Assembly (NCBI GenBank): GCA_007693455.1
Contig: REDP01000163.1
Coordinates: 1-33,230, forward strand
DNA length: 33,230 bases
Source of the DNA: Planctomycetota bacterium
GTDB taxonomy: Bacteria > Planctomycetota > UBA11346
Direction of reading: 5' to 3'
Both the position numbers and the translations under genes were made by a program. Under the pieces are notes generated by a model. It was not told where the DNA came from and made no database searches. It saw nothing but the letters and a program-made list of their open reading frames with translations. The first letter of the stretch is position 1. The number at the start of each line of letters is the position of its first letter. Positions 141 to 30,344 of this stretch are shown one piece after another.

Positions 141-254
141 CCATTGATCTCCCGATCGGCCTGCAAAAACGACCTGAATAGGGCTCTTTTTGCGTTAAAA
201 GCATGCACCGCGAAGCGGAAATTTCTTATCCAAGGTGAGCTTTGCGCCGCCCTG
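141..254 (+). repeat. Interspersed structured repeat, copy 1 (left end lost or diverged)
   Basis: This is the first of seven related intergenic repeats. It keeps the hairpin around gatctcccgatc (arms ttgatc/gatcgg pair with two G-T wobbles), the gcaaaaa...tttttgc hairpin, the ccgcgaagcgg hairpin and the right terminal arm gctttgcgccgccctg. The left terminal arm is not recognisable and no flanking direct duplication is seen. It lies 55 bp upstream of the phosphohexomutase start, in the same orientation as all other copies. Confidence 0.85.
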
Positions 255-309
255 TGGCACAGTATTGTCTCCTTCTTGAGCCAGGTGCGAGCGATGGCAT
301 CATCCGTGC

Positions 310-1686
310 ATGACGAATTCATCGCTGCAGTCCTGTGTCGTCAGTGTTTCGGGTATTCGCGGAGTTGTTGGATCGGGCATGGATCCTGGACTTATGCTTG
401 CTTGGGGCGCGATTCTGGGGCGGCATCTTGCACGCGGGCGCACGGTGGTGGTAGGGCGTGATGCGCGCCCGTCGGGGGCGGTGTTGATGCAGGCTCTGGC
501 TGCTGGCCTGCGCGGGGTGGGCGCTTCGGTTATCGACATTGGCGTGGTTCCCACTCCTACCGTGCCTCACGCAGTGCGTCGTTTGCGCGCTGGGGCGGGA
601 GTGCAGATCTCCGCTAGCCATAACCCTGAGCCATGGAATGCCCTCAAGATCTATACCCGTAAGGGACGTAATATCGATCAGTCCACGCTTGATCGCCTAC
701 TGGCGGCCTATCAGCGTGGGGTGGAGGGTTTGTGGTGCAGTCATGAGGGCCTTGGCGGGCACAGCGTGGATGATCAAGCCATTAGCGCGCATATTCGCTC
801 GGTAATGGCTGCCGTTGATGTGGCGGCTATTCGTAAGCGGGCCTTCCGCGTGGTCATCGACAGTGTCAATGGCTCGGGGGCAATGATGGGCCCAGAGCTC
901 TTGCAGGCCTTGGGCTGTCAGGTGATACCGCTTTATGATCGTATAGCCGATCCCTTCCCCCGTAATCCCGAGCCCACTGCTGCCAATGTCACAGAGACGG
1001 GTAAGATTGTCCGTGCAGTTGGTGCAGATGTGGGTTTTGTGCAGGATCCCGATGCGGATCGCTTGGCCCTTATTGATCATCGCGGCACCTATATTGGTGA
1101 AGAGTATACCTTGGCCCTGTGTGCTGCTGCCCGGTGTGCCGCCCATGGCCCGGGGGCAGTGGTCGCCACCAATCTGAGCACCAGTCGTATGGTTGAGGAT
1201 GTTGTTGAGCGCTTTCATGGCTCGGTAGTGCGTACGCCAGTGGGTGAGGCGCATATTCTTGACGCTTTGACCCAGCACGGCGCAGTGCTAGCGGGGGAGG
1301 GCAACGGTGGCGTGGTCGATCCACGGGTGGTGCAGTGCCGCGATGCGCAAATAGCAATGGCATTGATCCTGGAATACTTGGCGGGTCGCAATGGTACGCT
1401 GATGCAAGCCGTGGCAGAGATTCCGCGTTATGCCATGCACAAAGAAAAGATTGCTTGGGATCGACAGCAGGTGGCTGATGCCATTCCCGTATTGCGGCGT
1501 TCGGCTTTTGCCCACGGTGCAGAATGCGATGAGCGCGATGGGCTCAAACTTTCGTGGTCCGACCGCTGGGTGCATGTGCGTGCCTCGGGAACCGAGCCAG
1601 CTGCTCGTATCATTAGCGAAGCTCCTGATGCCAAGGCTGCGCGTTTACTTGCGCGGCAATTGCGTCAAGCTTTGCAACATACCTAA
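310..1686 (+). CDS. glmM: Alpha-D-phosphohexomutase, probable phosphoglucosamine mutase
   Basis: The 458-residue protein has all four phosphohexomutase signatures. They are the phosphoserine loop SASHNP (Ser103), the metal loop DPDADR (Asp246, 248, 250), the sugar-binding loop GEGNGG (329-334) and the phosphate-binding RASGTEP (424-430). Family members isomerise hexose 1- and 6-phosphates. The GEGNGG loop and the run after DPDADR most resemble archaeal/PVC-type phosphoglucosamine mutases, which would feed UDP-GlcNAc for peptidoglycan and lipopolysaccharide. Phosphomanno- or phosphoglucomutase activity cannot be excluded from sequence alone. The ATG at 310 is the only in-frame start giving the N-terminal SGIRGVVG strand; no clear Shine-Dalgarno precedes it. 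A zinc-ribbon gene follows after 86 bp. Confidence 0.9.
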   Translation: MTNSSLQSCVVSVSGIRGVVGSGMDPGLMLAWGAILGRHLARGRTVVVGRDARPSGAVLMQALAAGLRGVGASVIDIGVVPTPTVPHAVRRLRAGAGVQISASHNPEPWNALKIYTRKGRNIDQSTLDRLLAAYQRGVEGLWCSHEGLGGHSVDDQAISAHIRSVMAAVDVAAIRKRAFRVVIDSVNGSGAMMGPELLQALGCQVIPLYDRIADPFPRNPEPTAANVTETGKIVRAVGADVGFVQDPDADRLALIDHRGTYIGEEYTLALCAAARCAAHGPGAVVATNLSTSRMVEDVVERFHGSVVRTPVGEAHILDALTQHGAVLAGEGNGGVVDPRVVQCRDAQIAMALILEYLAGRNGTLMQAVAEIPRYAMHKEKIAWDRQQVADAIPVLRRSAFAHGAECDERDGLKLSWSDRWVHVRASGTEPAARIISEAPDAKAARLLARQLRQALQHT

Positions 1687-1772
1687 TCGCTCTTGCTTAG
1701 TAGGTTGTATATGTCCCCTGCGCCTGCTGACCACGAGTATAGACAATTGCACTGAAAAAAGGATATGGCGGC

Positions 1773-2732
1773 ATGAGTGAAAAAAAATCTGACGACGAGT
1801 TCTTTCCTGGTTTTATTGAAGATGACACGCCGCCCAGGAAGCCCGTGCCGCCACCAGTTGAAGAAGATGATGCCAGTGGCTTTAACCCCTTTGCTGATGA
1901 GTCGGCGGTGGAATCGGTTAGTCCCGATCCAGCTGCCCCTGTGCCCCACAAAGATGGCCCTCCCAGCGGTGCTGCAGTGGCTCCGGGGACTCCGGCTGCG
2001 CCGCCTGTCGCGGGTGGTTTTGATGCCTTTTCGGGCGCAGGCCAGCAACCCGATGAGGAGCCCGAAGAGGATGTGGCCCCTGGTGCGCGCAAAGATTTGT
2101 GGGTCTGCCCCCATTGTGGGGCCAAAAACCGTCCCGATCGCGATACCTGTCGCTCCTGCGGCAAGTCTCCCGATGAACCGGTGGTAGCGCCCTGGCACCG
2201 CCAGCCCAAAGTGATCATTGCCATCGCAGGCGCTGCCCTTGTCGTGGTACTGCTGCTGATTTTTACTGGTGGCGAACGTGTGGATATGCGTGCGGCGTCT
2301 TTGGCCGGCATTGATAATGATCTGCGTCGCCAGAGCGGCGTTCAGGTGGAGCTACCCCTAGGTGATGGGGTTTTTGTCAGCGAAGGGCGTTTCGCCGCAG
2401 TGGGTCGGGTGGCCCAGGTGCGCAGGCGCGATGAACATCTTATGCTGACCTTGGGTTTTGCCGATCGCTCGCGCGATGGCGAAAGTCAGATCCATGATGA
2501 GGGGGCGGATGATGTGGGCGTGCGCAATGCCTTGGGTGGCATTTCGCGGGTCCCCTATGCTCGATTGGTTGTGCTGGATCCTGATAACCGTATCGCCAGC
2601 GACATTTCCACCCAGGATGTGGTTTCGGTGTATGGCCATTACGGCTCTAGTGAAGAGCATGGGACATCAAATCCTGGAGGGCGCCGTTTTGTCCTTTTGA
2701 TTGAAGGTTTTGACCATTTGTCCCTGCGTTAA
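1773..2732 (+). CDS. Zinc-ribbon single-pass membrane protein, unknown function
   Basis: The 319-residue protein has an acidic, proline-rich N-terminus (1-105) without signal peptide. A four-cysteine zinc ribbon follows (CPHC at 112-115, CRSC at 126-129), then one transmembrane helix (about 147-166) and a roughly 150-residue C-terminal domain that should lie outside the cytoplasm. That domain contains alternating beta-type segments (for example FAAVGRVAQV, RLVVLDP, FVLLIEGF). The zinc ribbon resembles the RanBP2/zinc-ribbon type used for protein or nucleic-acid contacts. The start is supported by AAGGAT upstream of ATG 1773. No family was recognised for the C-terminal domain. Co-transcription with the upstream mutase is possible. 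Confidence 0.85.
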   Translation: MSEKKSDDEFFPGFIEDDTPPRKPVPPPVEEDDASGFNPFADESAVESVSPDPAAPVPHKDGPPSGAAVAPGTPAAPPVAGGFDAFSGAGQQPDEEPEEDVAPGARKDLWVCPHCGAKNRPDRDTCRSCGKSPDEPVVAPWHRQPKVIIAIAGAALVVVLLLIFTGGERVDMRAASLAGIDNDLRRQSGVQVELPLGDGVFVSEGRFAAVGRVAQVRRRDEHLMLTLGFADRSRDGESQIHDEGADDVGVRNALGGISRVPYARLVVLDPDNRIASDISTQDVVSVYGHYGSSEEHGTSNPGGRRFVLLIEGFDHLSLR

Positions 2733-2770
2733 TGCTGAGCCCGGCATGTGGGTAAGCCGTCTTTGGGGGC

Positions 2771-2807
2771 ACGCCGCCGCGCCGTGTTAGGCAATGCGCG
2801 GCGGTGT
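2771..2807. terminator. Bidirectional terminator hairpin between convergent genes
   Basis: A 12-bp stem (acgccgccgcgc 2771-2782 with gcgcggcggtgt 2796-2807, one G-T pair) with a 13-nt loop separates two convergent genes. It overlaps the minus-strand stop codon by one base. There is no strong T tract on either side, so termination is inferred from the stem and its position. Confidence 0.55.
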
Positions 2808-4975
2808 TACAAGCCGCTGCTGACTAATGGCATGGCTCGCGGCTCGAGCATAAGGATCACCGATTCGGTAACAACGATGAGGTGATCGCGGCCACCATCA
2901 CGTAAACGTTGGAATGGAAAGCCGGCTTTGCCGCTGTCCCAGCGCGAGGGACTGCCCCGCGGAGGACGAAATTCATTGTTGCGGTTGAGGTTCCACGCAG
3001 AAGACGAGAGGTGTTCGCCGCGGTCGGGGAGACTGTCGGCGGCGGTGTTGACGCTTGGCCCACGTTCGATGCTGCCGACAACGTTTCGACCGCGTTCATG
3101 ACCAACGAAAATGGCGCGCTCTCGGCGATCAGTAAAAAAGGTATCTGCCTCAATGGTGGCAATAACGCTACTGTCGCCGCGTTCTGAAAAAGCCAGGATG
3201 CGATCCTGGCGATCAATGACCAGAGAGCCTTGGCGCGGAATAATAAAGATGTCTTGCGGAACCATAACGGCGGCAAGAGGTTGATTCTCAGGGCCGTTAT
3301 CTTTGCGATATAAGCGGCCGCCAAAGCGGAAGAAGCGGCCATAGTTATTGGCTTCCCCGTGCCACCAAGGCGGGCGCCGGGTATTTGCTTCGGGGTCCTT
3401 GCGCACGGTTTCGGTAACCTGGCCGTTTTCTAAGTCCAGGCGATGCCAGGCCTCATCATTCTCGGCAATGGCAAAATTGTGCCAGGGGTGACTACGGATG
3501 CGCCAGTGTGCGGCGGGTAGTTGGAGTGGGACTTCTTCGCGTTGGGCGGGGTCGTGATGGAGGGTCACCATGGTGTAGCGAGGGTTGTCGCCGCCAGTGC
3601 GATAGAGCATGCGCCTGCGGCAGTGTACCCAGGCGTCATCGGCTTCTCCGTGCCAGAGCTCCTGTCCGTGATTGTCAAAAACGCTGCGGAGATTATCGGG
3701 ATGAACTGCCATGGTATAATGATGACTATCATGTACGGATTGAATGGGCGCTTGGGCCTCGGCCCAGGGAATGATTTCGGGGCTCGGGCTTTGTAGGCGC
3801 AAAAGGGAAATGGAATGGTCATCCCATACATAGAGGGTATGTGGAGAAAAATCGCTGCGACTATACCTGTTGGCGATGCTCATGCGTGGATTGGCAGTGG
3901 TATTGTCGATCAGATCAGGCCAATAATACAAAGCAATGGTATAGGGCTGCTCGCTGGCTTCTTCAATAATATTGCCAAGAAGATCTGTGCTCGCTTCACT
4001 GCTGGCCCCCCATCCCGAACCGATAATCAACCACTGTCCCACGGTCCACGCCCCAGGATTGCGGCCAATGGCTACGTGCGGTGAAAAGGGGTGACGTTCT
4101 CCCGTGCCATCGAGAAGCTCCCAGGTGTCGCCTTGGCGTAGGAGCGAACGATCAGGACCAACAGCAAAGTCATCCAGTGTACTCATTTGTTGTCGCTCAT
4201 TGGAAAATACGATGAGTGTCGTAGGGCGGCCTTGCTGTGCCCGGTCGGCGACTACCCAGCGTCCTTCATGGCCCACGGCGTGGGGGTTGCGGAAGTCATT
4301 GATAATACGTTGGTGCTCGGCACTGGCGATGACAATGCGCTGATTGTCGCCACGAGATCGGTTGATGGCGGCCACCACTGCACTGCCATCCTCGGCCACG
4401 GTAATGCGATCAAAAAGGTGGTCGTTTTGCTCTTCGAGAATACCGTGTAGGCCAACATCCCGCCTCCACAGCACCGATCCTGAGTCCCTGGCCACTACGC
4501 CGAGGGTGACTTGCCGGCGGTTCCAGGGGCCATGGGTACGGGCAAGGCCAATGTGGTTTTCAAGGCGGGTATAGGCACTGCGCCCAGGATGAAAGGGTAG
4601 GGGGATGCTCAGTTGAAGGGGCCGTCCAGAGGGGCTGGTGCGGTAGAAGCGGTGACCGCTGATGACCGCAATATGGGAATCGCGATCCCAATGGTTGTGT
4701 ATGTCCTCGGGAAAGCCCAGGAGCGGGGATCCGAGAACCTGACTGCGTCCCAAATACGGTAAGGTTTGCCGCCGGCGCAGGTGATCGTGCGCCTCCATAT
4801 AGGCTTCCAGTTGGATGCAGGTCCAGAGATCACCATGCTGCCGCGCTTGCGCGTAGAGCTCATGAATGGCAGTGGCTTCATGTTCGTCTTCGGCGGATAC
4901 GGCGGGGCTGCTAATGGCCCAGATGAGCAGGCCGAGTGCGAACACGCACAGCAAGGCATGGATACGCGGAGGCAT
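2807..4975 (-). CDS. Large secreted protein, probable beta-propeller fold
   Basis: The 722-residue protein begins with a clear signal peptide (hydrophobic core at about 7-24, cleavage likely after VSA at 28). Its body is rich in short beta-strand-like segments with DxGxxLW-type turns, for example ARDSGSVLW (162-170) and FDNHGQELW. Such turns occur in PQQ/WD-like beta-propeller blades. No catalytic motif or known family was recognised. It starts 10 bp after the kdsA stop, with AAGGAT (overlapping that stop) as ribosome binding site, so it is almost certainly co-transcribed with kdsA. A link to envelope biogenesis is only suggested by that context. Confidence 0.8.
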   Translation of the reverse strand: MPPRIHALLCVFALGLLIWAISSPAVSAEDEHEATAIHELYAQARQHGDLWTCIQLEAYMEAHDHLRRRQTLPYLGRSQVLGSPLLGFPEDIHNHWDRDSHIAVISGHRFYRTSPSGRPLQLSIPLPFHPGRSAYTRLENHIGLARTHGPWNRRQVTLGVVARDSGSVLWRRDVGLHGILEEQNDHLFDRITVAEDGSAVVAAINRSRGDNQRIVIASAEHQRIINDFRNPHAVGHEGRWVVADRAQQGRPTTLIVFSNERQQMSTLDDFAVGPDRSLLRQGDTWELLDGTGERHPFSPHVAIGRNPGAWTVGQWLIIGSGWGASSEASTDLLGNIIEEASEQPYTIALYYWPDLIDNTTANPRMSIANRYSRSDFSPHTLYVWDDHSISLLRLQSPSPEIIPWAEAQAPIQSVHDSHHYTMAVHPDNLRSVFDNHGQELWHGEADDAWVHCRRRMLYRTGGDNPRYTMVTLHHDPAQREEVPLQLPAAHWRIRSHPWHNFAIAENDEAWHRLDLENGQVTETVRKDPEANTRRPPWWHGEANNYGRFFRFGGRLYRKDNGPENQPLAAVMVPQDIFIIPRQGSLVIDRQDRILAFSERGDSSVIATIEADTFFTDRRERAIFVGHERGRNVVGSIERGPSVNTAADSLPDRGEHLSSSAWNLNRNNEFRPPRGSPSRWDSGKAGFPFQRLRDGGRDHLIVVTESVILMLEPRAMPLVSSGL

Positions 4976-4985
4976 GTGCTAATCC

Positions 4986-5843
4986 TTATCGGGGTAGGGG
5001 CGGATGAGGCCGGCCAATGGCTTGATGGATTGCCACGACAGAATCAAGAAATGCGGGAAGATCGTCTGCTGGAATGACATTGGGCCCATCGGAGAGCGCT
5101 TGTTCGGGGTAGTCGTGGGTTTCGAGAAAAAGCCCCTCTACGCCCACTGCTAAGGCCGCACGCATGAGTGCTGGGGCAAGATAGCCGCTGCCCGAAGAAT
5201 GGTCACCACCGCCCCCCGGCATTTGCACGGAGTGGGTGCCATCGTAGATGACGGGCACTCCCATGGCGCGTACCAGGGGAAGGCTTCGCATATCACTGAC
5301 TAGATTATTATAGCCAAAGCTTGTCCCACGTTCAATAATCACTAGGTCGCTGCCGCCGGCTTCATAAAATTTATCAATAATTGCCCGACAATCCCAAGGG
5401 GCAAGAAACTGACCCTTCTTAATAGACGTGGCTGTGCCGCTGCGGGCACAGGCTACGATAAGGTCGGTTTGCCGGCATAAAAACGCTGGCACCTGAATCA
5501 GATCAACGCTTTGCGCAACTGCCTCCACATCGGCGGTTTCATGGACGTCGGTGGTAACCGCAACCTGAAGCGTGTCTCGGATGTGGCGCAGGGCCGCCAG
5601 GCCATCGTGAAGTCCTGGCCCGCGGAAAGAGCGGTGGCTGGTGCGATTGGCTTTATCGTAGCTTGCCTTGAAAATTACCGGGAGCCCACGCTCGTGGCAG
5701 GCGCTTACCACGCGTTGGGCCATGCGCATAAGGTGCTCGGGGCTTTCAATGACACAGGGGCCGCTAATAATGACGGGATTTGCTCCGCCAATAGTTACGG
5801 GAGTGATCGCAGGATCGTTCAGGGTTACCGGGCGGATGGTCAT
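4986..5843 (-). CDS. kdsA: 3-deoxy-8-phosphooctulonate synthase (Kdo-8-P synthase)
   Basis: The protein is 285 residues, the usual length for KdsA. The enzyme condenses phosphoenolpyruvate with arabinose 5-phosphate to form Kdo 8-phosphate for the lipopolysaccharide inner core. Family motifs run in order: SGPCVIES, FKASYDKANRTS, TTDVHE, VPAFLCRQTDL, IKKGQFLAPWD, ERGTSFGYNN and YDGTHSVQ. The ATG at 5843 is chosen over an upstream in-frame start at 5969 because AAGGA lies 7 nt upstream and the family N-terminus begins here. The gene is first in a two-gene minus-strand operon with the secreted protein downstream. It implies an outer membrane containing Kdo. Confidence 0.96.
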   Translation of the reverse strand: MTIRPVTLNDPAITPVTIGGANPVIISGPCVIESPEHLMRMAQRVVSACHERGLPVIFKASYDKANRTSHRSFRGPGLHDGLAALRHIRDTLQVAVTTDVHETADVEAVAQSVDLIQVPAFLCRQTDLIVACARSGTATSIKKGQFLAPWDCRAIIDKFYEAGGSDLVIIERGTSFGYNNLVSDMRSLPLVRAMGVPVIYDGTHSVQMPGGGGDHSSGSGYLAPALMRAALAVGVEGLFLETHDYPEQALSDGPNVIPADDLPAFLDSVVAIHQAIGRPHPPLPR

Positions 5844-5961
5844 TGCAGGTCCTTGGCGGCAGGGGTGGGCGTCAAGAGCTATCCTAGCATAGCGGGTAAG
5901 CGGGGGAAAGGGGGCGCCGACCCGCGCTTGCCTCTGCGCGGTGTCCGTCAACAGTGCAGGT

Positions 5962-7149
5962 ATGACCACTGGGCGATGGATACTCCTGCAACGTTACGCA
6001 CCCCAAGTGGTGATGGCAATGGTGTTGGCAGTGGGCTTGGCAGGGGTTGTAGCCTTTTACGTTGCCCTGCGCCCCTGCGTTGTGGAGCATCAGCCTGGCG
6101 CCCGCTTAAGCTATGTTTTACGCAGTGAATTGCAGTCAGTGTCCCATGGCGATGAGGGGGAGGGCCTGCTGCCGCAATCGCGTTTTACCCATTACCGGAT
6201 TCACCTCTATATGCTTGGTTTGGATGGGGAGGCCGCGCTGTTGGTGGAATATGACGGGCCACGACGGCCCTCCTTGTATCAGGTGATGGTGTCGCGCGAT
6301 GGTCGCGTGCGTCTCCATGATGGCACGCGCTTACATGATTATGGTCCCACAGTCGGGTATTTTGATTTTAATCTTTTGACCTTGCCGCCAGGCCTTGATC
6401 AGTATTGGCATGCGGCTCTGCGCTATGCGTATCCCCCGCCAGAGCATGGTTCGCTGACGGCCCACGTCCAGCGCACTCAAAATGGTGCCCGCCCCCGCTT
6501 CCGTTGGCAGTACCCTGCCATCGAGTGGATTGATCGTCACCCCGAAATGCCGTCCGAACAGCGTTATGTGCAAATGCGAGACCTGGATGTCCGTTATCGT
6601 TTTGATACGCGTTCAGGCGTCTGGAGTGACGCGCGCATCCGCTTTATCGCTGGCGTTGAGGTGGACAACGATCCGGGCTATCGCCACGAGCGCGTAGAGC
6701 TTCAGTTGGATCTGCTTGATGTGCGTTCTGGCAATGAACAGCAGCGCCATCGCTTGCAGGCGCAGGTACGCGCCCTGCAGGCGGTAGAAGCGATGCTTGT
6801 TCAGGGCGATCGCCAAGGGGTGATGCAGCGCCTGCGAGAGCTGCGTGGCATTGCCCAGGGAGATCCCTTTTTGGATGCTCTGCTGCACCACTGGTACGAG
6901 GACGTCACAGCCTCCCCGCAGGCCCAGAGTCATGCGGTGCAGGTGGCAACGGTGCGCAGCCGGGGTGCTGCTGAAGATATTCGTTGGTCTTTGATTGCTG
7001 ATGGGTATCCAGCTTATATCAGTCAGCAGTCAGAGCGTATGGTGGTATTCGCTGGACCATTTAAAGAGCGTGACGCGCAGGTTTTATCAGACATGCAGCG
7101 GTTATTCCCCCGCAATCGTCCATTTTGGCAGAGCACGCCCTCTCGGTAG
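5962..7149 (+). CDS. Single-pass membrane protein with C-terminal SPOR-like domain
   Basis: From ATG 5962 the protein has 395 residues: a short cytoplasmic tail, one transmembrane helix (about 17-37), a large beta-rich periplasmic region (45-255), a helical stretch (about 260-310) and a C-terminal segment (324-383). That last segment matches the SPOR pattern: HAVQVATVRSR, an ADGYPAYI strand and VVFAGPFKERDAQV. SPOR domains bind denuded glycan strands of septal peptidoglycan, so a role in division or wall remodelling is plausible. An in-frame GTG at 5941 would add seven residues; neither start has a strong ribosome binding site. It is divergent from kdsA and convergent with ispE. Confidence 0.8.
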   Translation: MTTGRWILLQRYAPQVVMAMVLAVGLAGVVAFYVALRPCVVEHQPGARLSYVLRSELQSVSHGDEGEGLLPQSRFTHYRIHLYMLGLDGEAALLVEYDGPRRPSLYQVMVSRDGRVRLHDGTRLHDYGPTVGYFDFNLLTLPPGLDQYWHAALRYAYPPPEHGSLTAHVQRTQNGARPRFRWQYPAIEWIDRHPEMPSEQRYVQMRDLDVRYRFDTRSGVWSDARIRFIAGVEVDNDPGYRHERVELQLDLLDVRSGNEQQRHRLQAQVRALQAVEAMLVQGDRQGVMQRLRELRGIAQGDPFLDALLHHWYEDVTASPQAQSHAVQVATVRSRGAAEDIRWSLIADGYPAYISQQSERMVVFAGPFKERDAQVLSDMQRLFPRNRPFWQSTPSR

Positions 7150-7160
7150 TCACGGGGTAA

Positions 7161-8036
7161 TTATTCGTGCACGAGAGTTGCTGAGCGATCGAGAAAATGG
7201 GTTGCCACCACACGTACCTGTGCTGGTGGTGGCAACTGCGGGGGGTCAAGGCTGATGAGGGTGCTGCCGCTGCCGCTTAAACCCCAGCGCAGGCCTTGTT
7301 GCGTAAGCCACTGTCCAATCTCGCGCAGTGCTGGCTGGACTCGACAGGCGGCTGGCCAGAGATCATTATGAAGACACTCCTGGGGGCGACGTTGCCACAT
7401 TTGCTGCCATACGGCGCGACCCCAGGCGCTGCGCGGAGCACGTTCGTGGTCGTGTACGGCAGCGAATACCTGGGGAGTCAGGCAGGAAAATGATGGGATG
7501 ATGAGCCACAGTGGCCTTCCGACCTCGCCATGCATGGGGAGGGGAGAAAGTATTTCGCCGCGGCCCAGCCCATGGGCGCGACCTCCCTGGAGAAGGAAGG
7601 GTACGTCGGCGCCTAGCTGGAGGCTGTTGGCAATCCACTCAAGGCTTCCTTGTGCACCTGGAATCAGATGTCGTATGTCCCGCAAGAGGCCCGCCGCATC
7701 CGCAGAGCTTCCGCCCAGGCCACTGCCCACGGGGATGTTCTTGTCAATATGCACCCGCCAGGTGCCAGTCAGGCCGTAGTCGCGACGGAGATATTCCACA
7801 CAACGCCACACAATATTGCTCTCCCGACAGGGGATGCTGGGGTCGCTGCAGCTGAGGGCTATGCGATCAGGCCCGTGGGGCGAAAACCGGATATGCAGTA
7901 CATCGTGCAGGGCAATGCATTGAAAGGTGCTTTCAAGAAGGTGGAATCCCGCGCCATCGCGACCCAGGAGGCGGAGACCTAAATTCACTTTAGCTGGGGC
8001 GATACAGCGAAAATAGTAGGTCTGACTGCTGCCCAT
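7161..8036 (-). CDS. ispE: 4-diphosphocytidyl-2-C-methyl-D-erythritol kinase
   Basis: This 291-residue GHMP kinase phosphorylates CDP-methylerythritol in the MEP isoprenoid pathway. Visible motifs are the N-terminal APAKVNLGLRL with Lys16, the GHMP phosphate loop PVGSGLGGSSADAAGL (102-117), GADVPF with the catalytic Asp (about 144), and the C-terminal GLSGSGST. The ATG at 8036 is chosen because GGAGGG lies 5-6 nt upstream and the family N-terminus starts here; an upstream in-frame start at 8084 would only add residues not typical of the family. The stop lies 11 bp from the convergent SPOR gene. Confidence 0.95.
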   Translation of the reverse strand: MGSSQTYYFRCIAPAKVNLGLRLLGRDGAGFHLLESTFQCIALHDVLHIRFSPHGPDRIALSCSDPSIPCRESNIVWRCVEYLRRDYGLTGTWRVHIDKNIPVGSGLGGSSADAAGLLRDIRHLIPGAQGSLEWIANSLQLGADVPFLLQGGRAHGLGRGEILSPLPMHGEVGRPLWLIIPSFSCLTPQVFAAVHDHERAPRSAWGRAVWQQMWQRRPQECLHNDLWPAACRVQPALREIGQWLTQQGLRWGLSGSGSTLISLDPPQLPPPAQVRVVATHFLDRSATLVHE

Positions 8037-8203
8037 GAAACCCTCCGAAGGTGCTTGGCAAGAAGGGTAGTGCGCTCGGGCCATTGCGCAAAGGGAGCTA
8101 TTGTTCGGGTTGGAGAGCGTCTTCTTGGTCCATCATACACCCTCCCCCCCGATCTCGGGCCTGGGCTTGTGATGGGGTGGGTTTGGGTGAATGCTCTCCC
8201 TTT

Positions 8204-8241: not shown

Positions 8242-8288
8242 TAAAAGGGGACACACTGTGCCCGGGATTGATGGCTGAGGAGGTCTCA

Positions 8289-10652: not shown

Positions 10653-10691
10653 TTTTCCACTCGCCCAGGCTCTATCTGGAGTTTCGACACC

Positions 10692-13284: not shown

Positions 13285-13480
13285 CCAGGGCGGCGCAAAG
13301 CTTGCCCCCGGGGCCACTGGTCTCCGGGGCAGTGGCATTAAGCGTTACGCCCCCTTGGGGCTTAGCATTGAGCTCCTGATCGGCCCGCAATAAAACGCCC
13401 TAAATAGGACGTTTTTGCGCGATAAGCATATTCCGCGAAGCAGGCATTCCTTCCCTATGATGCGCTTTGAGTTGCCCTGG
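13285..13480 (+). repeat. Interspersed structured repeat, copy 2 (enlarged by extra hairpins)
   Basis: The terminal inverted repeats are ccagggcggcgcaaagctt (left) and gctttgagttgccctgg (right). The typical left-middle part is replaced by about 50 extra bases forming two more hairpins: gccactg 13313-13319 with cagtggc 13330-13336, and gccccc-tt-ggggc at about 13349-13361. The gcaa...ttgc hairpin and a changed ccgcgaagcagg hairpin follow. It lies 8 bp after the kinase stop and 51 bp before thpR. No convincing flanking duplication is seen. Confidence 0.85.
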
Positions 13481-18490: not shown

Positions 18491-18512
18491 ATTTTCTATC
18501 GCGGGATTGCTC

Positions 18513-18633
18513 ACGGGACCGCCGATCTCCTGATCGGTCAGCAAAAACGACCTGAATAGGGCGCTTTTTGCGCTCAAGGCATGCACGGCGAAGCGGGAAT
18601 TCCTTACCCAAGGTGAGCTTTGAGCTGCCCTGG
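18513..18633 (+). repeat. Interspersed structured repeat, copy 3 (lacks left arm, flanked by duplication)
   Basis: It contains the ccgatc-tcct-gatcgg hairpin, the gcaaaaa...tttttgc hairpin, the cggcgaagcggg hairpin and the right terminal arm gctttgagctgccctgg, but no left terminal arm. It is flanked by the direct repeat gggattgctc (18503-18512 and 18632-18641); the second copy overlaps the last bases of the element. The duplication surrounds the shortened form, so the shortened form itself appears to have inserted. It lies between the ArsC/Spx-like and DoxX genes. Confidence 0.9.
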
Positions 18634-18769
18634 GATTGCTCGTTTGCGTTGGTTGCATGCCGTCATTGCTGCGCCATACTGTGATTGGTTGGGATCGGGC
18701 AGTATGCAGGGCGCTCCCTTTCCTGATACGCTTTGCATCGCTCTGGGCAGTAGGGACAAGGAGTCTTTT

Positions 18770-20092: not shown

Positions 20093-20222
20093 GGCTGTAA
20101 TCCTCTATTGGCAACGGGGGGAGGTCTCTGGCGACCTGTGTTGCGCGGCATTGGTTTGTATGTGCTGACTGTGAGCCTTGGCCACCTTGGTCTTCTTACA
20201 AGGGCTTATTCCGGGCCTTGTA

Positions 20223-20358
20223 CAGGGCGGCTCAAAGCCTGCCCTCGGGATCGCCTGATCGGTCTGCAAGAATGACCTGAATAGGACGCTTTTTGTGTTC
20301 AATGCATCCACCGCGAAGCGGAGATTTCTTATCCAAGGTGCACTTTGCGCCGCCCTGC
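20223..20358 (+). repeat. Interspersed structured repeat, copy 4 (9-bp flanking duplication)
   Basis: The element runs from cagggcggctcaaagcc to gcgccgccctgc with matching terminal inverted repeats. It is flanked on both sides by ggccttgta (20214-20222 and 20359-20367), a clean 9-bp direct duplication. The first internal hairpin has lost about six bases relative to copies 3, 5 and 7. The gcaagaa...tttttgt and ccgcgaagcgg hairpins remain. It lies in the gap between the divergent dehydrogenase and SNF2 genes. Confidence 0.9.
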
Positions 20359-20367
20359 GGCCTTGTA

Positions 20368-23389: not shown

Positions 23390-23404
23390 TCTCCCTCGCG
23401 TATG

Positions 23405-23431
23405 CCGGCTGGTGGATTTTTCACCAGCCGG
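23405..23431 (+). terminator. Terminator-like hairpin after the SNF2 gene
   Basis: A perfect 10-bp stem (ccggctggtg 23405-23414, 7-nt loop gattttt, caccagccgg 23422-23431) starts 16 bp after the SNF2 stop. There is no T tract downstream, so it may be a Rho-independent-like terminator of weak type or an mRNA 3' end stabiliser. Confidence 0.6.
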
Positions 23432-23483
23432 TAAATCACCCTGGGAGTGACAACGCTTTCCCTTGAGCTGCGTATCATTATGT

Positions 23484-23515
23484 GGATGCATACTCGTGTG
23501 AGCAGATATGCATCC
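23484..23515. promoter_or_regulatory. 8-bp perfect inverted repeat upstream of secreted-protein gene
   Basis: ggatgcat (23484-23491) and atgcatcc (23508-23515) are perfect inverted copies separated by 16 bases, 40 bp before the start codon at 23556. Half-site centres are about 24 bp apart, somewhat more than two helical turns, which suits a dimeric regulator. A leader hairpin is equally possible. No regulator was identified. Confidence 0.4.
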
Positions 23516-23555
23516 ATTGCGTTTTGATACCTGTCTCTTTATAAGGAGGGGGAGT

Positions 23556-24329
23556 ATGCTGCGCCTGCTATCAACTATCCTGCTGTCGCTGCCGATGATG
23601 CTGTGGGCTGCCACTATCGAAATGCATGATGGCCGCGTCTTGCATGGCGTGTTGCAATCAAGTAGTGATGATGACCCTGTAGTCCTCCTGGTTGAAAAAG
23701 CTGGGATGCGTGCCTCCATGCGCCTAGCTCAAGAGGATGTGCGGGAGATTCGCCAGCACCTCGACCCACAACAAAAAGCCCTCAATCATCTGCGTCAGCA
23801 GTTTGCTGCTGCCCTGGACGACCCTGCCGCCTCTCCTGATAATCAGTGGGAGCTTGCGCAGGGCTTCGAGGAATTTCAGGCAGTAGCTGAGTTGCGAGCA
23901 GCTGCCCGAGCAGTGCTTCGCGATTGGCCCGACTTCGCCCCCGCCCGTACCCATTTGGGTTATGAACGGGTTGATGGGGAATGGCTCAATTATGCTCAAG
24001 CACGGCAGGCCCAAGGCCTAGAATGGTATGATGGGCGATGGCGTGATGCCCAAGAGGCGCAGCGTTTACGCGCAATCGCCCAGGCAGAGCGCGAAGAGCG
24101 CCGGCGCCAAGCCGATTTTCGACGCGTGCAACGCCGTTTAGCGGCGGAGGATCGCCGTCGCCGCTGGCACGACACCAGCACCCGTATTCCCGTGGTGAAT
24201 ATTGTCGGCCAGGGCAGCCACTCCTGCCCCTGGGGATCGACTCGTTATCATCATCACCGCACCACCGTACATCATCGCAGCGGTGGCTTTGTCAGCTTTG
24301 GAAGTGTCCGCCTACAGCAGGGCAGATAG
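23556..24329 (+). CDS. Small secreted protein, PVC-type, unknown function
   Basis: The 257-residue protein begins with a signal peptide (1-18, LWA-A). A small beta domain (about 19-68, TIEMHDGRVLHGVL...VREI) follows, with a pattern seen at the N-terminus of many planctomycete secreted proteins. Next is a helical region, then two related G-x-E/W-W-x-D-G-x-W-like units (HLGYERVDGEWL and GLEWYDGRWRDA). An Arg/Gln/Glu-rich charged helix (about 180-210) leads to a His/Gly-rich tail (YHHHRTTVHHRSGG) that might bind metal. ATG 23556 has AAGGAGG upstream, so an earlier in-frame start at 23508 is rejected. The function is unknown. Confidence 0.8.
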   Translation: MLRLLSTILLSLPMMLWAATIEMHDGRVLHGVLQSSSDDDPVVLLVEKAGMRASMRLAQEDVREIRQHLDPQQKALNHLRQQFAAALDDPAASPDNQWELAQGFEEFQAVAELRAAARAVLRDWPDFAPARTHLGYERVDGEWLNYAQARQAQGLEWYDGRWRDAQEAQRLRAIAQAEREERRRQADFRRVQRRLAAEDRRRRWHDTSTRIPVVNIVGQGSHSCPWGSTRYHHHRTTVHHRSGGFVSFGSVRLQQGR

Positions 24330-24358
24330 CCTGAGAGCAGATGGCTGTTCTTGCGTTG

Positions 24359-25423
24359 TTAGGCCGAGGCGATTTCTTCCCCAGTCAGAGCTTCAATGCT
24401 AATGCGTGATGCGACTTGTTCGGCAAGACTGGTAAATGCCCGTCCAGAATGGGAGTGGGGATGGGCCAGTACCACTGGCGTACCTTCGTCCCCACACTCA
24501 CGCACTGCTGGCTCCAGGGGTATGCCCCCGAGGAAGGGAAGGCCCTCGTCTTCGGCATAGCGCTGGGCCCCTCCAACGCCAAAGATGGGCGAGGATGTGC
24601 CACACTCGGGGCAGATAAACGCGCTCATATTCTCAACGATTCCCAATATTGGTATGTCAAGTTTATTGAACATGGTTACCCCGCGCTGGGCATCCAGGAG
24701 GGCAATGTTTTGCGGCGTGCTTACCACCACTGCCCCCTGTAGGGGGACGGTTTGCGCCAGAGTCATTTGAACATCCCCGGTGCCTGGGGGTAGGTCCACC
24801 AATAAATAATCAAGGTCACCCCAGGCCACATCGGTGATAAATTGGCGGATGGCGCCCATGAGCATGGGCCCACGCCAGATCATGGCGGCCTTGGGGTCGA
24901 CTAAAAATCCCATGGATATCATTCGTACACCATGGTTTTCTAGAGGGATCATTTGCTTATTGGCGACATAAGGTTCACGGGAGATGCCCATCATCATGGG
25001 GATCGAAGGCCCGTAGATATCAGCATCTAAAAGGCCCACCCGCGCACCGCTGGCGGCTAAAGCACATGCCAGATTGACGGTGACGGTGCTTTTGCCCACA
25101 CCGCCTTTGCCAGAGGCAACGGCAAAGACATGGCGCACTTTAGGTAGCACATCATCGGGCTTTTTCTTCTGCGGTACTTCGGCACTGACGGCTATTTCCA
25201 CCGCGTCCACCCCATCTACCGAAAGGGCGCGTTCGCGACATTGGTCCTCCAGTTCTTTTTTCACCGGGCAGGCAGCAGTCGTCAGTACTAAATGAAACAG
25301 CGCTGTGCTGCCCTCCATGCGTAGCTCACGGATCATGTTGAGACTTACCAAATCTTTGCCCAGATCGGGATCAATCACCTGACTCAGCTGCGCAGTAATC
25401 GCTTCAATAATGGCGTTGGACAT
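24359..25423 (-). CDS. mrp: Mrp/ApbC-type Fe-S cluster carrier ATPase
   Basis: The 354-residue protein has an N-terminal MIP18/DUF59-like domain (1-85), then the P-loop ATPase domain with SGKGGVGKST (104-113), VDLPPGTGD and the paired cysteines ICPECG (Cys271, Cys274) that bridge a 4Fe-4S cluster in the dimer. Members load Fe-S clusters onto target proteins, a likely need here for IlvD. ATG 25423 has GGGAGAG upstream. The longer in-frame start at 25621 would translate across repeat copy 5 and is rejected. The gene is divergent from the SSS symporter. Confidence 0.95.
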   Translation of the reverse strand: MSNAIIEAITAQLSQVIDPDLGKDLVSLNMIRELRMEGSTALFHLVLTTAACPVKKELEDQCRERALSVDGVDAVEIAVSAEVPQKKKPDDVLPKVRHVFAVASGKGGVGKSTVTVNLACALAASGARVGLLDADIYGPSIPMMMGISREPYVANKQMIPLENHGVRMISMGFLVDPKAAMIWRGPMLMGAIRQFITDVAWGDLDYLLVDLPPGTGDVQMTLAQTVPLQGAVVVSTPQNIALLDAQRGVTMFNKLDIPILGIVENMSAFICPECGTSSPIFGVGGAQRYAEDEGLPFLGGIPLEPAVRECGDEGTPVVLAHPHSHSGRAFTSLAEQVASRISIEALTGEEIASA

Positions 25424-25500
25424 AAGTGCTCTCCCTAGGGGGGTACGTAGGTCACTGTGATCTGTAAGCTGCCAATACAATCGCTGGCTTGCTCCCACCC

Positions 25501-25643
25501 TGGTGCGGCTCAAAGCTCGTCCCCGGGATCGCCGATCTCCTGATCGGCCAGCGAAAACGCCCTGAATAGGGCGCTTTTTGCGCCAAAAGCATGCACCGCG
25601 AAGCGGGAATTCCTTACCCAAGGTGAGCTTTGAGCCGCCCTGG
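25501..25643 (+). repeat. Interspersed structured repeat, copy 5 (full-length, flanked by duplication)
   Basis: This copy is near full length: the left arm tgcggctcaaagc pairs with gctttgagccgcc. It has the ccgatc-tcct-gatcgg hairpin, the long gcgaaaacgccct-gaat-agggcgctttttgc hairpin and the ccgcgaagcgg hairpin. A 13-bp direct repeat, gctcccaccctgg, lies at 25491-25503 and 25643-25655, overlapping the element ends by a few bases. It lies in the divergent gap between mrp and the SSS symporter, next to copy 6. Confidence 0.92.
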
Positions 25644-25664
25644 CTCCCACCCTGGAGTCAGCCG

Positions 25665-25809
25665 CCAGGGCAGCTCAAAGCTTGTCCCTGGGATCGCCGC
25701 TCTCCCGAGCGGCCTGCATAATCGCCCTGAATAGGGCGCTTTATGCACGAAAAGCATGCCCCGCGAAGCGGGCATTCCTTTCCCTGACAAGTTTTGAGTA
25801 GCCCCTTGG
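25665..25809 (+). repeat. Interspersed structured repeat, copy 6 (adjacent to copy 5, compensatory changes)
   Basis: The left arm ccagggcagctcaaagc pairs with the right arm ending gagtagccccttgg. The first hairpin is ccgctc-tccc-gagcgg and the second has gcataa/ttatgc. Both carry paired changes relative to other copies that keep the stems intact. The third is cccgc-gaa-gcggg. An 11-bp direct repeat, tggagtcagcc, lies at 25653-25663 and 25807-25817. The copy starts only 21 bp after copy 5 ends. Confidence 0.92.
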
Positions 25810-25864
25810 AGTCAGCCCCCTTTTGTGCCTTTGCTTCATCACTGTGACCTGCTAGGAATAGGGT

Positions 25865-27451
25865 ATGGATGGACTGGGGTTTGTAGATTGGCTGGTGCTC
25901 CTCAGTTATCTGGGGATCGTCTCCTGGGTCGCTTGGCGCAGCGGGCGTGCCCACCGTCAGGTCATTCATGACGATGGCGATACTGCCGATTATGTGCTGG
26001 CTGGGCGCTCCATTCCAGCCTGGGCGGCGGCGGTGTCGTTTATGGCCACAGCTTTATCGGCGGCCACGTTTATCGGCCTGCCCAATAAGGGTCGAGCTGA
26101 AGACCTGACCTATCTCGCTGCCAATATTGCCGCTTTTATTGCCATTGCAGTGGTGGCGCTGGTGTTTATCCCACTCTACTATCGACATCGTGTGCAAACC
26201 GTCTACGGCCTGCTTGGATTGCGCTTTGGTCCAGCTGCAGCCTGGACGGCAGGGGCCTTTTTTATTCTTGGTCGGCTCCTGGGAAGTGGCGCCCGCCTGT
26301 TTATCGCTGGTGGCGCGGTGGCATTTTTACTGGCTCCAGATGCGCAATCGGTGTGGGGGTTGATGGTTGCAGCAATTGTGGTGATGGCCCTGGTGGCGTC
26401 ATTGCTGGTGTTTATTGGAGGTATGCGTTCGGTAATCTGGACTGATGTCTGTCAGGCAGCAGTCTTTGTTTTGGCTGCAAGTGTGGTGATTGGGGTGCTC
26501 CTCTGGCGCATCCCCTTGGATGTGGTTGGAATTCTGGGTCATCTTGCTGACCCTGGCCCTGGCGAGCCATCGAAATTACGTCTCTTTGAAAGCGGTTTTG
26601 CGAGCCTTGATCCTGCCCACTCCTACTCCTTGCTCGCCATTGTGATTGGCCTGTCGTTAATCAACTTAGGTGCCTATGGCACCGACCAGGATATGACCCA
26701 GCGTCTGTTAACCTGTCGCGATGCGCGTTCTGGCGCGCGTTCGGCGATAATGGCCGTGCTTCTGGCGATCCCAGTGACCACTTTATTTATGGCAGTGGGG
26801 ATGCTGCTGTGGATTTTCTATGATCGTCCTGATATTATGGGGAATGCTGCGCCCAGTTATGATCCCGCCGATAACCCTTTTATTTTCGCGGTGTTTATTG
26901 CCCGAGAGCTGCCCAGCGGTTTGGCTGGATTGATGACGGCGGGACTCCTAGCGGCAGCAATATCCGGTCTGACTTCTGAAATCAATGCGATTGGGTCTAC
27001 TGCCATGAGTGATTGCTATCGGCCTCTGGTCCATAATCGTTCATCACGGCATTATATATGGGTCACCCGCATTGCCTCTGTTGCTGCGGCGATGGGTTTG
27101 GCGCTTACCGCGATTCTGTGTATTTCCTGGCAGGCGCGTGGGGTGGGTGATCTTATAGATTTTGCCCTTATGGTGATGATGTTTTGTTATTCGGGTTTAG
27201 TGGCAGTGTTTCTCTGTGCGGTGTGCTCGCGACGAGGTAGGAGTGCCAGTGCGGTAGCGGCTTTGTTTACTGGATTGATTGCGGTGATTGTTATGCAATT
27301 CGTGCCCTTACAGCGTCTCGGTTTGGTCCCTGGGGATGGTGCCACGCCGGTGAGTGCGGTTCTTGCCTTCCCCTTCCAGATGACCGTAGCAACTGGCCTT
27401 GCCTATATGGTGTGCATCGTAGCGCCAGCACGCAAGGCGCCGACGCCATGA
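25865..27451 (+). CDS. Sodium:solute symporter (SSS family), possible amino-sugar transporter
   Basis: The 528-residue protein has about 13 hydrophobic helices and the SSS layout: an outside N-terminus, DYVLAGRSIPAWAAAVSFMATALSAATFIGLP (the conserved segment around helix 2), then GGMRSVIWTDVCQAAVF and INLGAYGTDQDMTQRLLTC. Family members couple sodium entry to uptake of sugars, amino acids or similar small molecules. The substrate is not readable from sequence. The GH20, AnmK and MurQ genes directly downstream suggest a GlcNAc- or MurNAc-containing compound. Its stop overlaps the GH20 start (ATGA), indicating translational coupling. A weak AGGA precedes ATG 25865. Confidence 0.92.
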   Translation: MDGLGFVDWLVLLSYLGIVSWVAWRSGRAHRQVIHDDGDTADYVLAGRSIPAWAAAVSFMATALSAATFIGLPNKGRAEDLTYLAANIAAFIAIAVVALVFIPLYYRHRVQTVYGLLGLRFGPAAAWTAGAFFILGRLLGSGARLFIAGGAVAFLLAPDAQSVWGLMVAAIVVMALVASLLVFIGGMRSVIWTDVCQAAVFVLAASVVIGVLLWRIPLDVVGILGHLADPGPGEPSKLRLFESGFASLDPAHSYSLLAIVIGLSLINLGAYGTDQDMTQRLLTCRDARSGARSAIMAVLLAIPVTTLFMAVGMLLWIFYDRPDIMGNAAPSYDPADNPFIFAVFIARELPSGLAGLMTAGLLAAAISGLTSEINAIGSTAMSDCYRPLVHNRSSRHYIWVTRIASVAAAMGLALTAILCISWQARGVGDLIDFALMVMMFCYSGLVAVFLCAVCSRRGRSASAVAALFTGLIAVIVMQFVPLQRLGLVPGDGATPVSAVLAFPFQMTVATGLAYMVCIVAPARKAPTP

Positions 27452-29121
27452 CTGCTTCCCTGTATCTTTGGCCCTGGCCCAAGCAGGTAGAGCGACTCCC
27501 TGGGGCACTTCCTGCGCATAGTCCTTGTCCGCAGGCAGTGGTTGATGCCGCTTTGCCGCCAGAGCACTATCAGCTTTATGCTCCCAGTGATGCTGCAGCC
27601 CAATTGCGAGTGGCGGATGCTGCGGCGGCCCGTCACGCCCAGGCCACCTGGCAGCAGCTTATGGCCCATGATCCACCGCCAGCAGTGTCCATTGAAGATG
27701 GTCCAGACTTTCCTCTGCGCGGGATTATGCTCGACATAAGTCGCTGTCGGGTTCCCACCATGGCCCAACTCTTCGCGGTAGTGGATGGCATTGTTGCCAG
27801 CAAGGGCAATCATCTCCAATTATATGTCGAACACAGTCTTGCCTATCCTGGGCATGAGGCGGTATGGGCAGATGCCTCGCCTTTGAGTGTGGATGATCTT
27901 GCCGCGTTGCATCAGTATGCGGCCGCCCGCGGCGTGGAATTGGCGGCCAATCAAAATACCTTTGGCCACTGTGAGCGCTGGCTGCAGCATCCTGCCTATG
28001 CGCATCTTGGTGAATATGGCGACGTGGCCCAGCGGCTCGCCAATGGTGAGCCAGGCCCCTTTAGTCTCTGTCCCGTAGATCCGCGTTGCCGCAGCTTGGC
28101 GCGAAGCTGGTTGCGGCAGCAAATGGCCGTCTTGCCCGCCCCGTGGGTGCATGTGGGCTGCGATGAAACCGTGGATGTGGGACGAGGACGTTCGGCTGTG
28201 GCGGTGCAGCAGCGCGGCTTTGCGGCGATTTGGGCCGAGCACTGCCGTGCCATGTGCGAAACAGTGACCGCTGCTGGTCGTCGCCCATTGTTCTGGGCAG
28301 ACATGGCCTTGGAGCACCCCCAGGCCCTAGATCAGCTACCGCAGCAGGCGGTGGCGGTTGCCTGGCATTATGAGGCAGATGCGCCTTTTGCCCGTTGGGC
28401 TGAAGCCTTCGCCCAGCAGCAGCGGCAATGGTGGGTGGCGCCGGGCACCAGTGCCTGGCGTAGTTGGTTGGGTCGTGGCGATGCCCGTGACGGCAGCATT
28501 GCTACTGCTGCCCGCGATGGTTTGGCGGCTGGTGCGAGTGGTATGCTGGTGTGCGATTGGGGCGACTTGGGTCACCGCCAGCCCTGGCCCGTGTCCTGGT
28601 ATGGATTGGTGCAGGGGCTTGGGGCGGCGTGGCATGCAGCAGCTCCCATGGATCATGGAGCCATTGGTCGCTGGGCCTTGGGGGATGCGCAGGCTGGACG
28701 CTGGTTGGACGCCTGTTCGCGCTGCGATGGGATACTGCGTAGCCAGTTGCAGCACCCCTTACGGGGCGGGCCCCTGATCAATGCCAGTGCGCCCTTTGTC
28801 GATACCTGCTTGCCCTGGTCGCGGGATGATTGGGCGCCCCATGTGGAGTCCTGGCAGGCCCTGCGAGCCTCTCTGCAGGAACAGGGCCCGTTGCCCAGTG
28901 CGGCACCCCTGGCGGCGGAACTGAACCATGCGTGGCTGGCCGTGGATACCGCCCTTTGGCGGGCCTTGGCGCGGCGCGGGGCCGTATCCTCGCGCGGCTT
29001 ATCGGCAGCCTGGCAGTGGCTGGAACAGCAGCATGCCGCGCAATGGCATGATCGCTGCCGTCCAGGAGGCCTGGCTGAATCATGCGGCTACTACCAGCGC
29101 CTTGCCCAGGAGACTGAATAA
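27448..29121 (+). CDS. Glycoside hydrolase family 20-like beta-N-acetylhexosaminidase, cytoplasmic
   Basis: The 557-residue protein has a short N-terminal domain (1-85), then a TIM-barrel opening with DFPLRGIMLDISRCRVP (88-103). The barrel carries the catalytic Asp-Glu pair in HVGCDET (Asp239, Glu240), the substrate-assisted dyad of GH20, and WADMALEHP further on. The GCDET-VDVGRGRS form is typical of a GH20 branch found in Gram-positive and PVC bacteria. No signal peptide is present, so it should act on imported or recycled GlcNAc-containing fragments in the cytoplasm. The start ATG overlaps the symporter stop, and its stop overlaps the anmK start (TAATG). Confidence 0.87.
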   Translation: MTASLYLWPWPKQVERLPGALPAHSPCPQAVVDAALPPEHYQLYAPSDAAAQLRVADAAAARHAQATWQQLMAHDPPPAVSIEDGPDFPLRGIMLDISRCRVPTMAQLFAVVDGIVASKGNHLQLYVEHSLAYPGHEAVWADASPLSVDDLAALHQYAAARGVELAANQNTFGHCERWLQHPAYAHLGEYGDVAQRLANGEPGPFSLCPVDPRCRSLARSWLRQQMAVLPAPWVHVGCDETVDVGRGRSAVAVQQRGFAAIWAEHCRAMCETVTAAGRRPLFWADMALEHPQALDQLPQQAVAVAWHYEADAPFARWAEAFAQQQRQWWVAPGTSAWRSWLGRGDARDGSIATAARDGLAAGASGMLVCDWGDLGHRQPWPVSWYGLVQGLGAAWHAAAPMDHGAIGRWALGDAQAGRWLDACSRCDGILRSQLQHPLRGGPLINASAPFVDTCLPWSRDDWAPHVESWQALRASLQEQGPLPSAAPLAAELNHAWLAVDTALWRALARRGAVSSRGLSAAWQWLEQQHAAQWHDRCRPGGLAESCGYYQRLAQETE

Positions 29122-30200
29122 TGCGCAGGCAGTGGCGTCCACGCACCGTGCTTGGCTGCATGAGCGGCACGAGTTGTGATGGGGTTGATGTGGTGGCGGT
29201 ATCCTGGGGCGGGGATGGTCGGCCGCAGTTGTTGGCACATGCGGCCTATGATTGGGGCGATCTTGCCGACCGTGTGCGCGCTTACGCCGACGGCGCTGCC
29301 CTATCTGCTGGCGCAAGTCGTCACCTCCAACGTGATCTTGCCCAGGCTCATATTGAGGCGATTGCACGTCTTCCGGCAGAACTGCAGATGCAAGCCGAAC
29401 TCGTGGCGGTGCACGGGCAAACGGTCTATCATGCGCCGCCACTGTCTTGGCAGATGATTGATGCGGCGTGGATTGCCGCTCGCTTGTCCCGGCCGGTAGT
29501 CACTGATTTCCGCAGTGCCGACTTGGCTGCTGGTGGCCAGGGTGCACCGATTACTCCCTTGGCCGATCAGGAACTGTTCCCCGGTAAAGGCTGTCGTGCG
29601 GTGGTGAATCTTGGTGGATTTATCAATATAACCCTCCTGGATAATGAGCGCGTGTGCTCGGGCCGCGATCTGTGTCTTGCCAATCAACTCCTCGATCGTG
29701 CTGCTCGGACATGGCTGCAGCAGCCCTTCGATATGGACGGGGCCTGTGCCAGTACTGGCCAGCCTCAGGCTCAAGCCACTGCCCAATTGGCGCAGGAACT
29801 TATGAGCCAAAATCAGGGCCGCAGTCTCGGTACAGCAGACCAAGTCACGCCCTGGATTCAGCGCTGGCAGCCCCACCTTAGCGCAGCGGATGCCCTAGCG
29901 AGTATCTGTCAGGCCATTGCCACCTGTCTGCATGATCAGCTCCAGCACGATCGTCCGCATACGGTCTGGCTTGCTGGTGGTGGTGTGGCCAATGCGGCAT
30001 TATTGCAGGCGATTGCCCGTACGTGCACCGGCATGCGTGTTGTCAGTAGTGATGCGGCTGGCGTTCCACCCTTGCAGCGTGAAGCTGCCGCCATGGCAAT
30101 CCTGGCCCGGCGCCTCGCCATGCGACAGGCCATAACCATTCCTGCTGTCACGGGCTGCACCGCCCCAGCTCCCCTCGGTGCCACCTGGATCTACCCCTAG
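29121..30200 (+). CDS. anmK: Anhydro-N-acetylmuramic acid kinase
   Basis: The 359-residue kinase cleaves and phosphorylates 1,6-anhydro-MurNAc to MurNAc 6-phosphate in peptidoglycan recycling. Family motifs are GCMSGTSCDGVDVV (12-25), VAVHGQTVYH, DFRSADLAAGGQGAPITPLAD (129-149), AVVNLGGFINIT and WLAGGGVANAAL. The start codon overlaps the GH20 stop by one base (TAATG), so the two are translationally coupled. Its product is the substrate of MurQ, encoded next but separated by repeat copy 7. Confidence 0.94.
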   Translation: MRRQWRPRTVLGCMSGTSCDGVDVVAVSWGGDGRPQLLAHAAYDWGDLADRVRAYADGAALSAGASRHLQRDLAQAHIEAIARLPAELQMQAELVAVHGQTVYHAPPLSWQMIDAAWIAARLSRPVVTDFRSADLAAGGQGAPITPLADQELFPGKGCRAVVNLGGFINITLLDNERVCSGRDLCLANQLLDRAARTWLQQPFDMDGACASTGQPQAQATAQLAQELMSQNQGRSLGTADQVTPWIQRWQPHLSAADALASICQAIATCLHDQLQHDRPHTVWLAGGGVANAALLQAIARTCTGMRVVSSDAAGVPPLQREAAAMAILARRLAMRQAITIPAVTGCTAPAPLGATWIYP

Positions 30201-30202
30201 TG

Positions 30203-30344
30203 CTAGGGCGGCACAAAGCTTGCCCCGGGATCGCCGATCTCCTGATCGGCCTGCAAAAACGACCTGAATAGGGCGTTTTTGCGTTAAAAGCATGCTCCGC
30301 GAAGCGGAAATTCCTTACCCAAGGTGAGCTTTGAGTCGCCCTGG
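30203..30344 (+). repeat. Interspersed structured repeat, copy 7 (between anmK and murQ)
   Basis: The left arm tagggcggcacaaagctt and right arm gctttgagtcgccctgg are terminal inverted repeats. The ccgatc-tcct-gatcgg, gcaaaaa...tttttgc and tccgc-gaa-gcgga hairpins are all present. No flanking duplication is visible, so this copy may be older. It splits what would otherwise be a continuous symporter-GH20-anmK-murQ cluster. Confidence 0.9.

Follow-up and report, generated by a model that had tools for sequence, protein, structure and literature searches.

The seven-copy repeat described here is, to judge from its sequence, very probably a MITE of the ISAs1 type, putatively moved by a transposase of that family. 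It was studied in a Planctomycetota contig of 33,230 nucleotides, the whole of which is hereafter referred to as the window. As in other MITEs, the element is short (about 142 bp) and without a gene call, has terminal inverted repeats, is bounded by target duplications and reaches a high intergenic copy number. An earlier note on this DNA had likened it to a MITE or an expanded REP/RUP-type element. The first comparison holds, and the REP part of the second may apply to hairpin 1 and the conserved foot preceding it, but the whole element inserts as a transposon with terminal inverted repeats and target duplications, and not as a REPIN.

All seven repeats claimed for the window were recovered by repeat search, alignment, covariance model and nhmmer, all on the + strand, five being full-length and two left-truncated. 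The alignment yielded a consensus of about 142 bp, which begins with CAGGGCGGCTCAAAGCT, contains three hairpins and ends with AGCTTTGAGCCGCCCTG. The end repeats and hairpins reported in the note are thus real, as is the loss of the left arm in copies 1 and 3, for which the alignment begins at model positions 34 and 18, respectively. The layout said to be common to all copies is confirmed for the ends and hairpins, but not for copy 2, which has additional sequence between the left end and hairpin 1. The copies are as follows:

145..254, + strand: copy 1, truncated on the left by ~32 bp (123.5 bits with nhmmer, covering model positions 34-143)
13286..13479, + strand: copy 2, both ends present, lengthened to 194 bp by ~50 bp of additional sequence after the left end (covariance-model match at 13285-13480, 87.3 bits)
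18513..18632, + strand: copy 3, left ~24 bp missing (covariance model and nhmmer matches)
20223..20357, + strand: copy 4, hairpin 1 with a 7-bp deletion
25501..25642, + strand: copy 5, full length (163.9 bits), with its left end at 25501-25517 and its right end at 25626-25642
25666..25806, + strand: copy 6, member of a divergent subfamily, its hairpins showing paired changes (110.9 bits)
30204..30343, + strand: copy 7, full length (164.2 bits)

None of these copies lies within a gene, according to gene calls based on codon usage, in agreement with the intergenic location initially proposed; copy 1 has a neighbouring gene on its right-hand side only, the contig starting there. Copy 7 is located 3 bp past the stop codon of anmK and 69 bp ahead of a murQ-like gene (Pfam AnmK and SIS-domain matches). 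These two genes nearly abut in the congener, and the insertion, in the region 30201-30412, may affect an operon for anhydro-MurNAc recycling.

Insertion as DNA is indicated by the target duplications, which were detected at 44 of 54 copies (score ≥7), versus 0.1 expected from shuffled flanks, and were mostly exactly 10 bp long. With the length fixed at 10 bp, 9 or 10 positions were identical for 50 of the 76 copies tested in this genome and for 14 of 18 in the congener. Within the window, the duplications are exact at copies 3, 5 and 6 and identical at 9/10 positions at copy 4; none was seen in the flanks of copies 1, 2 and 7. They are listed below, with no strand assigned:

18503..18512: duplication GGGATTGCTC left of copy 3, 10 bp, with an exact repeat at 18632-18641
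18632..18641: duplication right of copy 3, 10 bp, its terminal G in common with the copy
20213..20222: duplication left of copy 4, 9/10 identical to 20358-20367
20358..20367: duplication right of copy 4, partner of 20213..20222
25491..25500: duplication GCTCCCACCC left of copy 5, with an exact repeat at 25643-25652
25643..25652: duplication right of copy 5, partner of 25491..25500
25653..25663: duplication TGGAGTCAGCC left of copy 6, with an exact repeat at 25807-25817
25807..25817: duplication right of copy 6, partner of 25653..25663

In the target logo, a G...C preference was visible but weak, and it may be an artefact of the flexible placement of the ends. Several specific features were also observed. 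At copy 3 (18503-18641), the exact 10-bp duplication adjoins the truncated left end, as if the deletion had begun exactly at the transposon end. Tandem copies only ~8-23 bp apart were found at L082:1002-1291, L087, L083 and in the window (25491-25817), and at L082 one 9-10-bp duplication is present three times around two copies.

Elements of the ISAs1 family are recognised by an end repeat of 14-22 bp that starts with CAGGG, together with a direct repeat of 10 bp (PMC11946415). The ends of the element are 17 bp long and start with CAGGG, and CAGGGCGGCTCAAAGCT matches this description. The genome has one ISAs1-family transposase locus (PF13808, NF033564), the element ends of which, CAGGGCGACGCAAAGC and CAGGGCCACTCAAAGC, each differ by one base from the MITE end CAGGGCGRCTCAAAGC and lie beyond the coding frames by about 5 and 77 bp; we estimate the chance of finding both within 200 bp of the gene at about 2e-11. 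This family is rare among the relatives (5/59). The MITE and the ISAs1 element of this genome have only their ~18-bp ends in common, their interiors being unrelated. The NF033564 profile exceeded its cut-off in two overlapping frames of the single ISAs1 gene, indicating a frameshift; no currently active ISAs1 mobiliser was therefore found in this genome, and no target duplication was present in the flanks of its ISAs1 copy. Likewise, no ISAs1 gene was found in the MAGs of the congener and of G015, a member of another genus, both of which are incomplete. At L060:651-2541, a frameshifted ISAs1-family transposase is fused to an N-terminal DruA (Druantia) domain. We infer that the ISAs1 element of this genome, or a relative since lost or unassembled, moved the MITE. 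The transposase would act in trans, recognising the ends, moving the element and joining it to a 10-bp staggered cut, and copies landing in genes would be lost, leaving survivors between genes.

The interior is not insertion-sequence DNA. ISAs1-type ends may instead have come to enclose a REP together with two further hairpins, one of them terminator-like, and such a composite is the simplest reading because of the resemblance of hairpin 1 and its foot to the REPs associated with RAYT genes in this bacterial family. The internal features of two full-length copies are as follows:

25521..25548, + strand: REP-like module of copy 5, foot CCCCGGGATCGC and hairpin 1 (GCCGATC-TCCT-GATCGGC)
25551..25581, + strand: hairpin 2 of copy 5, a GC-rich stem followed by CTTTTTGC (25558-25573 listed as terminator-like)
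25596..25606, + strand: hairpin 3 of copy 5 (CCGC-GAA-GCGG)
30223..30250, + strand: REP-like module of copy 7, foot 30223-30234 and hairpin 30233-30250
30253..30282, + strand: hairpin 2 of copy 7
30296..30308, + strand: hairpin 3 of copy 7

Hairpin 1 and the foot CCCCCGGGATCGC are similar, in foot and hairpin position, to REPs flanking RAYT genes in the same bacterial family, where these genes are bordered by inverted CCCCCGGGATCGC / CCTGGGAGCGC hairpins. The module forms inverted repeats on both sides of RAYT genes in G012 and G003, and the flanking REP of G003 combines CCCCCGGGATCGC with the stem GCGGCCG-TCC-CGGCCGC. Across 30 loci with Y1_Tnp matches, 16 such modules were counted, versus 1 in shuffled loci. 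REP tags described to date are mostly GTAG, GTGG, CGTC or CnGA (PMC3733652, PMC6006769); the REPs flanking RAYT genes of this Planctomycetota family (L285, L298, L282, L297 and L283) carry a GGGA[GT]CGC foot rather than the usual GTAG or CGTC tag. On the basis of the 12-13-base foot and the position of the hairpin, hairpin 1 and its foot probably constitute a REP enclosed by transposon ends.

The presence of this REP-like hairpin and foot raises the question of whether the whole element might be of the REPIN/BIME type, moved by a RAYT (Y1/HuH) rather than by a DDE transposase. The genome contains three Y1_Tnp matches, one with such REPs adjoining, and the same foot and hairpin are found alone and clustered in sister genera. 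Nevertheless, the constant 10-bp duplications and the match of the CAGGG ends to the ISAs1 element make such an origin highly improbable. Furthermore, 101 of the 104 module occurrences in the sampled loci (some of them overlapping) belong to unmistakable copies of the element, and the remaining three carry the end repeat too. A REPIN, a unit of two inverted REPs lacking a transposon-type duplication of fixed length, was rejected for the whole element, which has one REP-like module per copy in addition to the 10-bp duplications. In this genome, the stem of the REPs next to RAYT genes differs from that of the MITE, and at the loci sampled here a module bearing the MITE's own stem was confined to the MITE and truncated copies of it. 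The ISAs1-type MITE is thus retained for the whole element, and the palindrome would have spread in this genus by riding in it.

Weak matches in other genera led to additional MITE families. The first, in G015, is an ISAs1-type MITE of ~101 bp with ends CRGGGCGCCTCAAAAGTCGG and the same layout (L233, L236, L239-L244 and L246-L250); of 71 candidates, 15 were scored, and 10-bp duplications (≥9/10) were present in 10 of 13 copies, against 0 of 156 control pairs. Another family, found in G000 and the congener G001 (L252, L253, L261, L262 and L267) and in G007 (L251), is 111 bp long, with ends GGGCAYCTCTAWAAACTCACC and duplications of ~4 bp recognised by eye (ATAG, ACAA, CTAT, TCTA). All three MITE families have a nearly identical foot, CC[CT]GGGA[TGA]CGC, directly before hairpin 1, and a stem that varies by family. 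It is conceivable, albeit somewhat doubtful, that a RAYT-dependent REP has repeatedly been enclosed by unrelated transposon ends in this Planctomycetota family, giving rise to several MITE families: the ISAs1 type with 10-bp duplications, and a further type whose ends read GGGCAYCTCTA and whose duplications are ~4 bp long. Two kinds of transposase would then disseminate the palindrome, and the hairpins would be kept as aids to the propagation of the element.

The element folds strongly, with a value of -74.3 kcal/mol for the RNA of copy 7 (z = -7.8 versus shuffles), and both strands fold well. Over 91 copies, 90% of cells were paired (92% for the 17-bp terminal inverted repeats), and 67 cells of the stems had two-sided changes, inherited changes included; shuffles gave 25 ± 4 such cells and slid controls 16-31. 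The clearest covarying pair, A-T to C-G in hairpin 1, shifts as a block with a change in the loop across subfamilies. Covariation was rejected as proof of RNA function; this pair may reflect a small number of events or template-directed repair. Hairpin 2 (CGCCCT-GAAT-AGGGCG-CTTTTT) resembles an intrinsic terminator.

The very high genome copy number predicted from the seven copies was borne out by at least 146 matches, among the 150 candidates scored, to a model built from 25 copies, in a 3.63-Mb MAG consisting of 334 contigs. The end repeat occurs 289 times in this genome, versus 0 for a reversed control pattern, and 53 of the 56 end repeats within 433 kb fall in recognised copies. Another 400 kb of large contigs contained ~36 matches of ≥40 bits, which extrapolates to ~330 copies, an estimate likely to be low because several contigs end inside a copy. 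The genome total, partly extrapolated, is therefore probably 300 or more.

None of the 38 scored copies lies inside a gene, in a sample of 433 kb that is 88% coding according to codon-usage gene calls. Their junctions are tandem (18), divergent (14) and convergent (6), counts close to the shares of intergenic DNA in these arrangements (26.4, 14.6 and 5.8 kb, respectively), and the copies between tandem genes have the same orientation as the genes in 10 cases and the opposite orientation in 8. This distribution bears on the possibility that the host has domesticated the element for regulation, keeping it at gene ends as a mobile bidirectional terminator or a signal for RNA processing, a role with which the terminator-like hairpin 2, the strictly intergenic location and the covariation of the stems beyond shuffles would be consistent. 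However, the junction types track the amount of intergenic DNA, neither an orientation bias nor an excess at gene 3' ends was found among the scored copies, and none of the three sites tested is common to the congener. A role for the host is therefore unsupported, and we consider this explanation most unlikely; a host terminator was dismissed as the principal explanation. The least credible of the alternatives is a family of structured noncoding RNAs spread by duplication since, despite strong folding and pair covariation, there is no Rfam match, both strands fold well, the target duplications denote insertion as DNA and orientation is inconsistent. The gene context speaks for a selfish element that persists in intergenic DNA rather than for a host terminator or RNA.

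The search of related genomes proposed in the earlier note revealed many copies in only one of 59 relatives, the congener G001, and one weak match in each of two other genera. The copies of the congener are marked by diagnostic bases of their own and likewise show 10-bp duplications. At three junctions common to the two species (NAD-binding/SNF2, ArsC/DoxX-like and anmK/murQ), this genome carries the element and the congener does not; the junctions in the congener corresponding to those of copies 4 (orthologous) and 7 lack the element. Given this distinct variant and the empty orthologous junctions, each of the two species seems to have undergone its own amplification of the family.

Consistent with the novelty initially suspected, no Rfam family matched the window at the gathering threshold, or two copy-bearing loci at E ≤ 1. 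Exact core patterns were absent from GTDB contigs and IMG/VR (the congener consensus differs), and blastn gave no match to plasmids, although near relatives of this bacterium may be missing from all these collections. No ISAs1-derived MITE was found in the open-access literature (subscription journals and ISfinder lay outside this search). The MITE is of a known kind; the family and its composite build seem to be undescribed, judging from Rfam and open literature. A conspicuous repeat fragmenting this assembly is thereby explained, and the ISAs1 family gains a high-copy MITE. The element also suggests a possible bridge between repeats usually treated apart, RAYT-linked REPs and the MITEs of DDE transposons; if the REP module is confirmed, a comparison of genera within one bacterial family could test how REPs outlast their RAYT or break free of it.

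The element is similar to insertion sequences of the ISAs1 family, which have a DDE transposase, in its CAGGG end repeat, its 10-bp duplication and the near-identity of its ends to those of the genome's own ISAs1 element, but it has no transposase gene and its interior is unrelated. Like ERIC, Correia/NEMIS and RUP, it is short, mostly intergenic, geneless and present in high copy number; these repeats, set apart here by description rather than by sequence, differ from it in their ends, target duplications and hosts. As many as 711 copies of ERIC are present in Photorhabdus, and over 120 of Correia in Neisseria (PMC10969869). The element shares with RAYT-associated REPs and REPINs a short hairpin with a conserved foot, as seen in the inverted pairs that border RAYT genes of this bacterial family, but here the hairpin sits within an element with terminal inverted repeats and target duplications. 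The one precedent found for a REP within a MITE is QMITE2 of Coxiella burnetii, a MITE of 150-190 bp with terminal inverted repeats, duplications of 7-11 nt of variable sequence and a REP inside (PMC5896051). QMITE2 has a GTAG REP and a different host, whereas the element described here combines a GGGA[TG]CGC foot with ISAs1-type ends, and its module is found again in MITEs whose ends are unrelated.
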